Shown piece after piece: positions 25,845 to 28,997 of a DNA stretch of 64,000 bases. A program made the position numbers and the translations under genes. The notes below the pieces were generated by a model, which saw nothing but the letters and a program-made list of their open reading frames with translations, was not told the origin of the DNA and did not search any database. The stretch's first letter is position 1. The number at the start of each line of letters is the position of its first letter. The DNA is from Nonomuraea zeae (GTDB taxonomy: Bacteria; Actinomycetota; Actinomycetes; Streptosporangiales; Streptosporangiaceae). The stretch is taken from contig NZ_VCKX01000005.1 of the NCBI RefSeq assembly GCF_005889725.1, forward strand, positions 1 to 64,000. The letters are read 5' to 3'.

Positions 25845-25904
25845 CTACCCCTCGCCGGAGGTCAGGCCGACCGGGCAGGAGACCCCGGTACCGCCGATGC
25901 CGCT
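25845..25904 (-). pseudogene. msrA 3'-end relic
   Basis: Nineteen codons and a TAG read [19 protein letters not shown]. They match the C terminus of the intact msrA at 28335-28394 over 51 of 60 bases, with the differences mostly silent or conservative. Both copies are on the minus strand, so they are direct repeats bracketing the ATPase and VapBC-like genes. Nothing msrA-like continues upstream of the relic. Confidence 0.8.
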
Positions 25905-26081
25905 CAACCGGGAGACGGCGGCACGACGGAGACCGCCTTCTGGACGGCTGCGGCGCGTCCTGTGGCGTAGGACCGAAGCGGGCGGCACCCTTGACAGTGC
26001 TTCGGAGAAGGTTGAGGCGAACATCTCACAACCTCGATCGGCGTCTCCTCCCGTACTCCCGGCCGAGACGCTGGGCCACGG

Positions 26082-26142
26082 CTCGGCAGATCAGCCAGCC
26101 CATGTGCGGCAAATCTGCCGAGAGGTGTGCGGCAAATCTGCC
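26082..26142. promoter_or_regulatory. Clustered repeat motif upstream of the ATPase gene
   Basis: GTGCGGCAAATCTGCC occurs at 26104-26119 and 26127-26142 (23-bp spacing, about two helical turns), each with the near-palindrome GGCAAATCTGCC. An inverted partner CTCGGCAGAT lies at 26082-26091 opposite ATCTGCCGAG at 26113-26122. Three half-sites at regular spacing 36-96 nt before the start suggest an operator, though a stem-loop is also possible. Confidence 0.5.
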
Positions 26143-26177
26143 ATGCCAGCATGTCAGTGCGGAGTATTCTCCGCTCC

Positions 26178-27446
26178 GTGGACACGGATGAACTCACGCT
26201 CTTCCCGCGTCGCGCGGAGGCCATGGCGATGGAAGCCCTCACCGACACCCGTGTAGTGGTGATCAATGGCGCCCGGCAGGTCGGCAAGAGCACTCTGGCC
26301 CAGGCGATCGTGCGTCAGACGGCAGGAGCCGGCGAGATCTACCTGGATCAGGCAGCCGTACGCGCGGCGGCGCGGCAGGATCCCGATGGGGTCGTACACC
26401 ACGACGGACTTCTTCTCATCGATGAGATCCAGCGCGTACCGGATCTCCTTCTCTCCATCAAGCGGGAAGTGGACGCCGATCCACGGCCAGGACGCTTCTT
26501 GCTGACGGGATCCGCCCGGCTTCTGGGCCTCCGGGACTTGCCGGACGCGCTTCCCGGCAGATCCGAGACAATCGAACTCTGGCCGCTCTCCCAAGGGGAG
26601 ATCGAACGGAGCGACGACGGCTTCGTGGACGGGGCATTCCGGCAAGGTCCTGATCTCAAGGTCGCGACTGCCGGACTTCGTCGTCCTGACTACTTGCATC
26701 GCGCGCTACGTGGAGGCTATCCGGAGGCCGTCCACCGCCCGTCCCATCGTAGAAGAGCCCGTTTCTTCGAGTCCTACATCTCCGATCTGATCAACCGAGA
26801 CGTCAAGCAGATGTCCGATATCGAGCGACCCGCCGATATGCGCCGTCTGCTCAACATTCTCGCAGGACGGATGGGCGGCTTGACTGTGATCGACAACATC
26901 GGCCGCGATCTCGGGCTACCTCGCAACACCGTGAAGCGCTATATCGAGCTGCTCGACCTGGTGTACGTCATCAGACGGATTCCGGCCTGGTCTTCCAACG
27001 CGACCACACGCGCGATCGCGACACCCAAACTGCTGCTGGTCGACTCTGGACTTGGCGCCCATCTGGCAGGCCTGACCCCATCCCGGGTGTCCGATATAAC
27101 GGCACCCGTGGGTCCGCTGATGGAGAACTTCGCCCTCGGCGAGCTGGCCCGCCAGCTCACGTGGTCCGAGGAGCCTGTACGGCTCTACCACTACCGAGAT
27201 CGAGATGGGGTCGAAGTCGACGGCATACTCGAACGAGCCTCTGGCGAGATCATCGGCATCGAAGTCAAGGCCACCGAAACCGTACGCGCCGATGACTTCA
27301 GAGGCCTGCAGCATTTGGCCCGCAAACTGGGCGACCGACTCATCGCCGGGTACGTCCTTTACGCGGGCCAGGAAACGCTTCCTTTCGGGGACCGCATGCG
27401 CGCTCTTCCACTATCCGCATTGTGGACCGCGTCTTCCACAACGTGA
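26178..27446 (+). CDS. AAA-family ATPase with DUF4143 domain (COG1373 type)
   Basis: 422 residues from GTG 26178. The first half is a P-loop ATPase with Walker A INGARQVGKST (about 32), Walker B GLLLIDEIQR (about 78) and a sensor LLTGSARLLGL (about 113). The second half is DUF4143, with RGGYPEAV (about 183), ARFFESYISDLINRDV (about 197) and a PD-(D/E)XK-like tail, DGVEVDGIL then IIGIEVKATET (about 350-375). Such stand-alone ATPases are common accessory genes, sometimes near toxin-antitoxin or restriction loci. The PD-(D/E)XK-like signature could mean nuclease activity, which is inference. Confidence 0.85.
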   Translation: MDTDELTLFPRRAEAMAMEALTDTRVVVINGARQVGKSTLAQAIVRQTAGAGEIYLDQAAVRAAARQDPDGVVHHDGLLLIDEIQRVPDLLLSIKREVDADPRPGRFLLTGSARLLGLRDLPDALPGRSETIELWPLSQGEIERSDDGFVDGAFRQGPDLKVATAGLRRPDYLHRALRGGYPEAVHRPSHRRRARFFESYISDLINRDVKQMSDIERPADMRRLLNILAGRMGGLTVIDNIGRDLGLPRNTVKRYIELLDLVYVIRRIPAWSSNATTRAIATPKLLLVDSGLGAHLAGLTPSRVSDITAPVGPLMENFALGELARQLTWSEEPVRLYHYRDRDGVEVDGILERASGEIIGIEVKATETVRADDFRGLQHLARKLGDRLIAGYVLYAGQETLPFGDRMRALPLSALWTASSTT

Positions 27447-27560
27447 TGGACGGACTTACGTGTCCCTGAACGCGGGTCGTCCTGGCGGCGATATTGCTGG
27501 TGGCAGCGCTTCGCCTCCCCCAATAGTTCCGGAGACCCCCGCTCGGCCCCTCAAGCAGTC

Positions 27561-27977
27561 TCAGACAGGGACCACCTGCACTGCCTTCCCGCACAGTTTG
27601 CCCATCTCGCCCTCGTCAGACGTCAGAACGATGACAGGGCGCACCGAGCGCAGTGCGGTGGCCGCGACCACAGCGTCGATGGCGTACTTGTGACCATGCA
27701 GGCGGGCATCTCGAAGAAGCTCGATCGCTCGCGACGAGATGTCCTCGGTCACCGGCTCGATCTTCAGCCGGGACAGATACCACCTGAGACGATCGCTTTT
27801 GACGCGGACCTCTTGTGCCTCGACCGGTGTCATGGCGCTGACCACAACCCGAAAGTCGTTGTCCTGCGCCTCCCGTACGAACGCTGTCACCCGCTGGTCG
27901 GCCTCGCACCACTTCACGAGCCCTTGGCTATCGAGCACGAGAGTGCCCGCGCTTAACCGGCTTCGTGCGCGCGCCAT
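27561..27977 (-). CDS. PIN-domain ribonuclease, VapC-like toxin
   Basis: 138 residues from ATG 27977. The PIN fold is indicated by TLVLDSQGLVKW (first acidic residue, about 15), VSAMTPVEAQEV (conserved E, about 53), KYAIDAVVAATAL (acidic D, about 101) and IVLTSDEGEM (about 117). The first motif has LDSQGL rather than the common (V/L)DTS. It overlaps the 3' end of the RHH antitoxin gene by 25 nt and is convergent with the ATPase gene. Confidence 0.82.
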   Translation of the reverse strand: MARARSRLSAGTLVLDSQGLVKWCEADQRVTAFVREAQDNDFRVVVSAMTPVEAQEVRVKSDRLRWYLSRLKIEPVTEDISSRAIELLRDARLHGHKYAIDAVVAATALRSVRPVIVLTSDEGEMGKLCGKAVQVVPV

Positions 27978-28207
27978 CCGTCCTCCTGTTGGAGTTCGGG
28001 CGCGGACTTTACGCGGCGGAACAGCTCTGCCGCCTCATCCCGCAAAGACTGTGGGATCGGCCCAGAAGCGGCCTCGTTCGCCTGCAGGGCCTCCTCCAAG
28101 AGATCCCGCTCGATCTGGCGCTCCACAGCGGCATCAACGTAGGCGGAAAACCCGCGGGCTCCAACTCGCTCTCGGACAGCGCGGATGTTGCCTGCTCTCA
28201 GAGACAC
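27953..28207 (-). CDS. Ribbon-helix-helix antitoxin, VapB-like
   Basis: 84 residues from GTG 28207. The frame continues upstream as AAKVSVSLRAGNIRAV with no ATG, so the usual MAKVSVSL-type antitoxin start seems to have been lost and GTG within KVSV is used. The RHH core is VSVSLRAGNIRAVRERVG plus FSAYVDAAVERQI; the C terminus is acidic and would bind and block the PIN toxin. A possible ribosome binding site is not evident. Confidence 0.7.
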   Translation of the reverse strand: MSLRAGNIRAVRERVGARGFSAYVDAAVERQIERDLLEEALQANEAASGPIPQSLRDEAAELFRRVKSAPELQQEDGWRAHEAG

Positions 28208-28334
28208 ACTGACTTTGGCGGCCGGGCCGTCTCCCGGGCGAAGTCTCGCTCTGGCATGCTCATAGGCCCAGTTACTACTCGAAGGAGCAAAATGCCGATC
28301 CTCGCTCTACGCAAGGACCGGCCGCTACATGCGC

Positions 28335-28997
28335 CTACGCGTCGCCGGAGGTCAGGCCGACCGGACAGGTCACACCCGTGCCGCCGATGCCGCAGTAGCC
28401 GTTCGGCACTTTAAAAAGATATTGCTGGTGATATTCCTCGGCGTAGTAGAACGGCCCGGCAGGTGCGATCTCCGTGGTGATCTCGCCGTACCCCGCCCCC
28501 TTGAGCACCTCCTGGTACGCGTCCCGCGACGTCTCAGCCGCCTTCTGCTGCTCCGGCGAGTGGTAGTAGATCGCCGACCGGTACTGCGTGCCCACGTCGT
28601 TGCCCTGGCGCATCCCCTGCGTCGGGTCGTGGGCCTCCCAGAAGACCCTCAGGAGCTCCTCGTACGACACCTTCGCCGGGTCGAAGACGACCCGTACGGC
28701 CTCCGTGTGGCCCGTGAGGCCGCTGCAGACCTCCTCGTACGTCGGGTTGGGCGTGTGGCCCCCCTGGTAGCCGACCGCGGTCGTGACGACCCCCGGCGTC
28801 TGCCAGAACTTGCGCTCGGCGCCCCAGAAGCAGCCGAGACCGAAGTCGGCCACCTCCAGCCCCTCCGGGTACGGCGGCGCGAGCGGGGCGTCCAGCACCG
28901 CGTGCCGCGCCGGCACGGGCATGGTCTCCGCGCGCCCCGGGAGCGCGTCCTCGGGTCGGACCATCGATGTCTTGTTGCCGCCGAACAGCCAGCCCAT
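28335..28997 (-). CDS. msrA: Peptide methionine sulfoxide reductase A
   Basis: 220 residues from ATG 28997, with GGAGGT 8 nt upstream. MsrA reduces methionine-S-sulfoxide in proteins. The catalytic GCFWGAER motif is at about residue 55, with [17 protein letters not shown] (about 77), [10 protein letters not shown] (about 137) and the recycling-cysteine tail [14 protein letters not shown]. The 40-residue N-terminal extension is usual for actinobacterial MsrA. Its last 60 bases are repeated at 25845-25904. Confidence 0.95.

Follow-up and report, generated by a model that had tools for sequence, protein, structure and literature searches.

The DNA examined here (the window) is a stretch of 64,000 nucleotides from the actinomycete Nonomuraea zeae (contig NZ_VCKX01000005.1, positions 1 to 64,000) which encodes, on its minus strand, an intact msrA gene followed at lower coordinates by about 2.4 kb of DNA with a VapBC-like gene pair and an ATPase gene, and then by a second copy of the msrA 3' end. 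Comparison with related genomes indicates, with a probability which we put at roughly 85%, that this region is a degraded part of an array that grew by site-specific accretion at the msrA 3' end, driven by a serine recombinase. The features of the locus are as follows.

28335..28997, minus strand: intact msrA, the target gene, 220 aa (Pfam PMSR, E 4e-65)
28335..28433, minus strand: element-borne msrA 3' end, codon 189 to stop, forming the left end of the VapBC cassette and beginning at the codon where most strong extra copies start
28420..28433, minus strand: conserved core TATCACCAGCAATA, the presumed crossover
27506..28433, minus strand: VapBC cassette, 928 bp (a unit of 919-929 bp in four further cases)
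27953..28207, minus strand: vapB-like open reading frame (ORF), GTG start, first codons out of frame, no Pfam match (homologues 102-103 aa)
27561..27977, minus strand: vapC-like PIN toxin (Pfam PIN, E 5e-6)
27491..27528, minus strand: inner junction, with the cassette right end ACTATTGGGGGAGGCGAAGCGC followed by the msrA core remnant TGCCACCAGCAATAT (junction model, E 8.6e-8)
25904..27490, strand not assigned: second unit, its own msrA 3' end almost gone and its right junction unrecognisable
26127..27446, plus strand: AAA_14/DUF4143 ATPase, cargo of the second unit (Pfam DUF4143, E 1e-40; AAA_14, E 7e-24)
25845..25903, minus strand: far copy of the msrA 3' end, retaining the stop but lacking the core (86% over 59 nt)

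The two msrA ends form a direct repeat (25845-25903 and 28335-28393) of 59 nt with 86% identity, both copies lying on the minus strand and ending in a TAG stop. This repeat, with its common orientation and its own stop, had been pointed out in an earlier note made from the letters of the window alone, and it is real: when the msrA DNA was compared with the whole 13.6-Mb genome, the copy at 25845-25903 was the sole match besides msrA (E 2.5e-12). The native repeated piece measures about 99 nt (codon 189 to stop), of which the far copy retains 59 nt. The genes in between were described in that note as an ATPase, a PIN toxin and an antitoxin; Pfam bears out the first two, and the third, an ORF without Pfam match, is probably a VapB-like partner of the PIN gene, to judge by its position and by homologues in other cassettes. 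Relative to one homologue, the window vapB has a 1-nt length difference near its 5' end (28200-28290) which shifts the first codons out of frame, and therefore the window copy may be shortened or inactive. The differing base composition ascribed to these genes is present but modest, since 25750-28499 has a G+C of 0.61-0.66, against 0.65-0.74 on the low-coordinate side and 0.64-0.72 on the high-coordinate side.

Between the PIN gene and the ATPase gene sits a third, partial and att-like junction (27491-27528). Its E-value comes from a junction model whose training set did not include this stretch, and it also fits, with 1 mismatch, the junction pattern described below. The 2.4 kb between the two msrA ends thus consist of two units, an exact 928-bp VapBC cassette and a decayed ATPase unit.

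The same arrangement recurs in relatives. A search for MsrA covered 59 genomes, 54 of them Nonomuraea (those labelled in the analysis include G032, N. endophytica; G020, N. longispora; G026, N. roseoviolacea subsp. carminata; G069, N. rhodomycinica; G071, N. sediminis; G027, N. candida; and G073, Nonomuraea sp. SBT364; G012 is Thermoactinospora rubra), and returned, besides the intact genes, many matches to the last ~33 residues, located downstream and in the same orientation. An intact msrA of this type is present in 48 of the 54 genus genomes, and in these up to 20 kb downstream of the gene were read with a model of the last 150 nt of msrA; some loci are shortened by contig ends, and further contigs with msrA ends were added. 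These loci contain 91 extra msrA ends (at least 14 bits) and 66 junctions (the right end of a unit followed by the msrA core), and different species carry different cargo bounded by the same msrA end, in agreement with the earlier proposal that elements enter the 3' end of the gene, bring a new end and leave a duplicate behind. At least one extra end (at least 24 bits) or junction, in some cases a weak one alone, occurs in 39 of the 54 genus genomes; msrA, previously regarded as an unusual target, is a widely used site.

The extra copies are 3' ends almost exclusively. A 150-nt slice from the 3' end of msrA gave 50 matches in msrA genes and 90 elsewhere, in 67 loci, whereas the other 150-nt slices gave 50 and 1 (5' slice) and 50 and 0 or 50 and 2 (two middle slices). 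Most of the extra ends of at least 40 bits (57 of 69) start at model positions 43-52, 29 of them at position 51; the start point corresponds to the codons for Tyr-His-Gln-Gln-Tyr, 99 nt before the gene end (codon 189 in the window). The peptide encoded by this tail aligns with the C-terminal end of a solved MsrA structure and includes two C-terminal cysteines, which we take to be the resolving cysteines.

A second type of msrA 3' end (ATCGCGCCTGC...GAGTGA) is found in the intact msrA of G009, G022 and G031, with a variant in G010. Relic ends in other genomes are of this second type too, which suggests an exchange of end types. Six of the 54 genomes have no intact msrA of this type: in G060 the gene matches up to residue 166, fragments are retained in G003, G017, G018 (at a contig end) and G064, and nothing is left in G028. 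The islands may sometimes cost the host its msrA gene.

A recognised site at both ends delimits 59 units with a median length of 1660 bp, and several cargo types recur at nearly constant length, namely VapBC (919, 928, 928, 929, and 929 bp), Phd-ParE (1014-1018 bp, eight units) and HigB-like plus XRE (877, 917, and 927 bp). Among the 42 units of at most 3 kb none has the recombinase described below or the initiator RepSA over half of the protein's length. A match to one of six toxin-type queries is present in 32, five more (the cl4/cl25 pair, AbiEi-like) are probable toxin-antitoxin pairs assigned by eye alone, and the remaining five comprise one acetyltransferase unit and four without match. 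Cl4 and cl25 have no toxin-antitoxin match in Pfam or NCBIfam. The toxin families named by Pfam are PIN, ParE, Gp49-like, and PIN_3; among the toxin-type queries, the PIN partner of the XRE gene falls slightly below the Pfam cut-off and a second VapC-like family stood outside the Pfam scan. VapC homologues with at least 79% identity number 20, of which 17 lie within ~11 kb of an msrA gene, end or fragment. When 40 cross-genome pairs of three cassette types were compared, 31 had cargo more than 2 points closer than the msrA body, in keeping with transfer between species.

The junctions themselves share a motif at the border. The junction model was trained on junctions, and therefore the test on all 66 of them (18 families), in which 18 of 25 border columns and 0 of 91 columns farther out lie above the null, is partly circular; it was repeated with junctions picked by the msrA end alone (n = 55; 16 cargo-end families), in which 10 of the 25 columns at -25..-1 and 0 of the 91 farther out lie above the 99.9% null. 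Allowing at most 2 mismatches, the junction pattern gives 57 matches in 33 of the 54 genomes. All 34 matches with 0-1 mismatch are in loci bearing msrA ends, and 11 of the 23 with 2 mismatches lie outside such loci, scattered matches being also obtained with a reversed control. The base before the border is C in 50 of 52 junctions and the third base of the Tyr codon is C in 51 of 52; both positions are variable in intact genes, which argues that the crossover takes place inside CACCAGCA or rightward of it.

For the 48 intact genes, distances in the early gene body correlate with those in the last 100 nt before the core (rho 0.46) more than with those in the tail (rho 0.21); resolved into 50-nt blocks, the correlation is 0.32-0.75 as far as 38 nt before the core (the majority of these blocks lie within the early gene body) and falls to 0.16 and 0.14 in the final two blocks. 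Across genomes, the mean tail distance is 0.189 between units with the same cargo and 0.260 between units with different cargo, a difference reached in none of 1000 label shuffles.

Candidate empty sites at chromosome level, obtained by comparing the sequence behind last relics with that behind intact genes, could be shared cassettes, and therefore the pair G019/G075 alone was used to look for change at a junction. The two arrays are 95.2% identical on one side of a junction and 97.1% identical on the other; exactly at this junction G075 alone contains a unit of 2,795 bp, and the two alignments share 97 nt, which is close to the tail length. The extra unit carries Phd-ParE and the cl4/cl25 pair and has no recombinase match. 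An occupied and unoccupied site, for which the earlier note had recommended a search, is thereby at hand; either G075 gained the unit by site-specific insertion, or G019 lost it by site-specific or homologous recombination.

A candidate enzyme is found at the same border. Seven units of 6.7-10.3 kb contain half or more of a recombinase, and in six of these over half of RepSA is present as well; RepSA was identified at E 9e-157 and 7e-156. The recombinase has the Resolvase and Recombinase domains of a large serine recombinase, matches the PHROG integrase family phrog_95 and is the rightmost query gene in each of the seven units, six of which adjoin intact msrA while the contig of the seventh starts at the core; an eighth unit (G026) retains the N-terminal part of the recombinase only. 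In N. endophytica the recombinase start codon is 39 nt from the core. Relatives at E 1e-40 occur in 12 of the 54 genus genomes, nine of them being of the type (>80%) found at msrA, of which three (G005, G020, G026) are interrupted or partial. The earlier remark that no integrase is visible holds for the window, where the genes scanned against Pfam include no recombinase, and for its genome, which has no relative of the msrA-site recombinase at E 1e-40; full-length relatives, however, bear the large serine recombinase.

The survey took in 44 named loci. Beyond Nonomuraea the recombinase abuts an msrA 3' end in Planobispora, Herbidospora (three loci), Streptosporangium carneum, Microbispora amethystogenes, Microtetraspora (two), Actinomadura rubrisoli and seven Streptomycetaceae; toxin-type homologues occur in several of the loci outside the genus, and in M. 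amethystogenes a VapBC pair (82% and 76%) lies between two msrA ends ~944 bp apart. A tree was built of 40 recombinases, excluding fragments L172 and L173, the interrupted N. longispora L148 and, by oversight, L162. In this tree 21 of the 40 are at an msrA end, and the label "at msrA" can be placed on the branches with 2 changes, where shuffled labels take 13.7 on average; the target follows the recombinase clade. The other 19 (e.g., L141, L152, L164) lie away from msrA in the sequence examined; off-msrA recombinases are ~59-66% identical and occur in Streptosporangiaceae and Actinomadura.

Further observations concern the recombinase and its elements. No FtsK-type transfer gene was seen in the part of the full-element ORFs that was scanned, and no solved structure matches the recombinase at E 0.001. 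A phage origin was considered and rejected (225 phage records match, all below 60% identity, the best among the ten listed at ~30%); 29 plasmid records match, one at 63%, which is an 11.9-Mb record of Nonomuraea gerenzanensis filed among plasmids. A tyrosine-recombinase site, suggested by an imperfect TATTGC/GCAATA symmetry at the junctions, was dropped, the adjacent recombinase being of the serine type. The msrA-side genes differ among recombinase elements and include AAA/DUF3696 (L057:12685-14109), AAA plus DUF6414 (L092:15761-18353), DUF6414 (L090:1343-2470) and DUF4238 (L063:1556-2566), possibly defence cargo; the element of G066 (L091:11189-13236) has two genes which by eye resemble an IS21-type transposase and its helper.

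In the mechanism proposed here, the large serine recombinase of integrative elements of 7-10 kb, most with RepSA, would recognise msrA near codon 189. The right-end half site of an incoming circle would be joined to the chromosomal msrA tail and the circle's own 99-nt tail to the chromosomal msrA body, the predicted recombination joint being TACCACCAGCA; in the circle, the right-end motif would be fused to TACCACCAGCA and then to the msrA tail. The reading frame would remain uninterrupted, with both C-terminal cysteines contained in the new C-terminus, and the former tail would lie at the far side of the cargo. Because each element brings an msrA tail as its left end, every insertion would recreate the site beside msrA and units would stack, and the location of recombinase-bearing units next to msrA fits such a last-in-first order. 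The small recombinase-free units (~0.8-3 kb, most of them toxin-antitoxin pairs) have the same two ends and are presumably moved by a recombinase acting in trans or along with a full element. The action of the recombinase on these small cassettes, the order of insertion and the present mobility of the units we infer, as we do the steps of strand exchange, the form of the donor and the manner of transfer. In the window, the VapBC cassette would be the newest unit, whole except for the vapB start, and the ATPase unit an older one with its own tail reduced to the core and its far junction lost, followed by the 59 nt left of the oldest tail. Since the genome has no recombinase, the array is probably stranded.

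Another small unit might be delimited by a direct repeat of 35 nt (83%) at 25130-25164 and 25797-25831, immediately past the far msrA end; the repeat contains GTGATCGTTTCCGGTCA and brackets an acetyltransferase gene (25169-25708).

Several points weigh against site-specific accretion by a serine recombinase. A relative of the enzyme is present in 12 of 54 genomes and absent from that of the window, so that most arrays have no resident enzyme, and no recombination event has been observed. In 15 of the 54 genomes the sequence read has no extra end or junction; in the window, the far copy lacks the core and the inner junction carries changes. The half site at the left of the element resembles the chromosomal site, while the phage-type attachment site (attP) of serine integrases is not usually like the chromosomal half site. 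The tail weakly tracks the gene body (0.4% of 500 shuffles give a rho as high as 0.21) and the drop in rho is already visible in the block -38 to +12; the eleven tails nearest to that of the window carry other cargo in the grouping used, the nearest tail with the same cargo ranking twelfth. Unit lengths are not constant throughout, with longer VapBC (1557, 1560, and 2954 bp) and Phd-ParE units (1998, 2265, 2795, and 5354 bp), some of which are perhaps fusions after loss of a junction. Three of the 20 VapC homologues (in G005, G063 C316 and G028) are not shown to be near msrA, and in 9 of the 40 cross-genome pairs the cargo is not clearly closer, the msrA body being clearly closer in three. Lastly, homologous recombination between repeats of ~100 nt could delete units precisely, which would make the G019/G075 difference a loss.

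An alternative which we consider unlikely is that the array grew and changes by RecA-dependent homologous recombination of msrA-end fragments, with no site-specific enzyme acting on the small units. Ends of ~100 nt which are alike between units would suit this route, precise loss between repeats is to be expected from it, and most cassette-bearing genomes have no recombinase; however, the border is sharp in 57 of the 69 strong copies, unrelated cargoes have a right-end motif in common, which homology alone would not need, and a recombinase stands at the border of the full elements with a target that follows its clade. It is very improbable that the 2.4 kb of the window are one composite VapBC and ATPase element in which the inner junction is a chance resemblance or a dead site. 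The inner core, ~15 nt with one change and no msrA tail behind it, would allow such a view, but the inner junction fits the junction model at E 8.6e-8, other genomes have VapBC cassettes of 919-929 bp with an identical end point, and the ATPase has no cluster partner in the first 41 loci and no match in any of the 59 units. If msrA had been duplicated in tandem and the second gene then deleted, an origin that the earlier note had raised for the relic, a 3' relic would be left in one genome; this can hardly have produced extra copies that across 67 loci are 3' ends (90 versus 0-2 for the other slices) and in many cases follow one another with various cargoes in between.

A site-specific array of this kind would matter in several respects. 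Small toxin-antitoxin operons spread, and the route of such short transposase-free pieces is often unclear; with units that have exact ends and enter at one fixed site, and with a candidate enzyme, the travel of small operons becomes testable. The arrays also suggest that mobile DNA repeatedly exchanges the C-terminus of MsrA, a core repair enzyme, between species and, if the recombinase works as proposed, the msrA site could serve as a landing place for genetic tools in Nonomuraea and relatives.

Comparable systems are known. In the staphylococcal cassette chromosome (SCC/SCCmec), inserted at rlmH of staphylococci, the gene is entered at its 3' end and stays intact, 15-bp repeats partition the region and recombinase-free units occur, according to PMC4723332; CcrB is described as a serine recombinase in PMC3146451. 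The msrA arrays are like SCC in having a serine recombinase, a conserved protein gene that is entered at its 3' end and kept intact and units without recombinase, and unlike it in their target, which is msrA rather than the rlmH that defines SCC, in the replacement end of ~99 nt, the single recombinase gene seen, the mostly toxin-antitoxin small units and the actinomycete hosts. The ssrA islands of Dehalococcoides, also in PMC3146451, are tandem, bounded by repeats of the target 3' end and provided with a serine recombinase at one edge, 16 with and 15 without an integration module; they differ in having a tmRNA (transfer-messenger RNA) gene as target, a 20-bp repeat, a CcrB-like and a small second recombinase, and reductive dehalogenase cargo. 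Among actinomycete integrative and conjugative elements (AICEs), 19 of 144 use serine recombinases, some in protein genes (PMC3218068), and the main text of that survey does not name msrA. The full msrA elements resemble the serine-recombinase AICEs in their serine recombinase and RepSA initiator, and so possess both the site-specific integrase and the initiator (RepSA, RepAM or Prim-Pol) by which AICEs are recognised. Cis-mobilizable elements (CIMEs), as presented in PMC5704250, lack integration and transfer genes, keep both end sites and stack in tandem by accretion. A recombinase is likewise missing from the scanned window genes, as are recombinase and RepSA from the 42 small units; both end sites are kept by the VapBC cassette only, the ATPase unit having no recognisable right end. 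Unlike CIMEs, many small units do not look like the remains of a single larger element, and several cargoes recur across species at near-equal length.

SCC, the ssrA islands, the serine-recombinase AICEs and CIME accretion are systems of the same kind as the msrA arrays. In the open-licence literature searched, supplements aside, msrA was not found named as an integration site of this sort; as far as these searches show, msrA as the site and the long replacement end are new, as are the very small cassettes of repeated length, mostly toxin-antitoxin, and their spread over Streptosporangiaceae and beyond. In the familiar picture of integrons, arrays of ~1-kb one-operon units, with toxin-antitoxin cargo, stand behind one fixed site, as they do here; unlike in integrons, the recombinase seen at the site is a serine and not a tyrosine enzyme, the site is the end of a protein gene and no fixed recombinase gene is seen beside the array. 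It is possible, at somewhat less than even odds in our estimate, that the msrA end is the serine-recombinase counterpart of the integron, a self-rebuilding entry site which, in several actinomycete genera, successively collects dedicated recombinase-free cassettes of ~1 kb, most of them a single toxin-antitoxin operon, with the enzyme supplied in trans.

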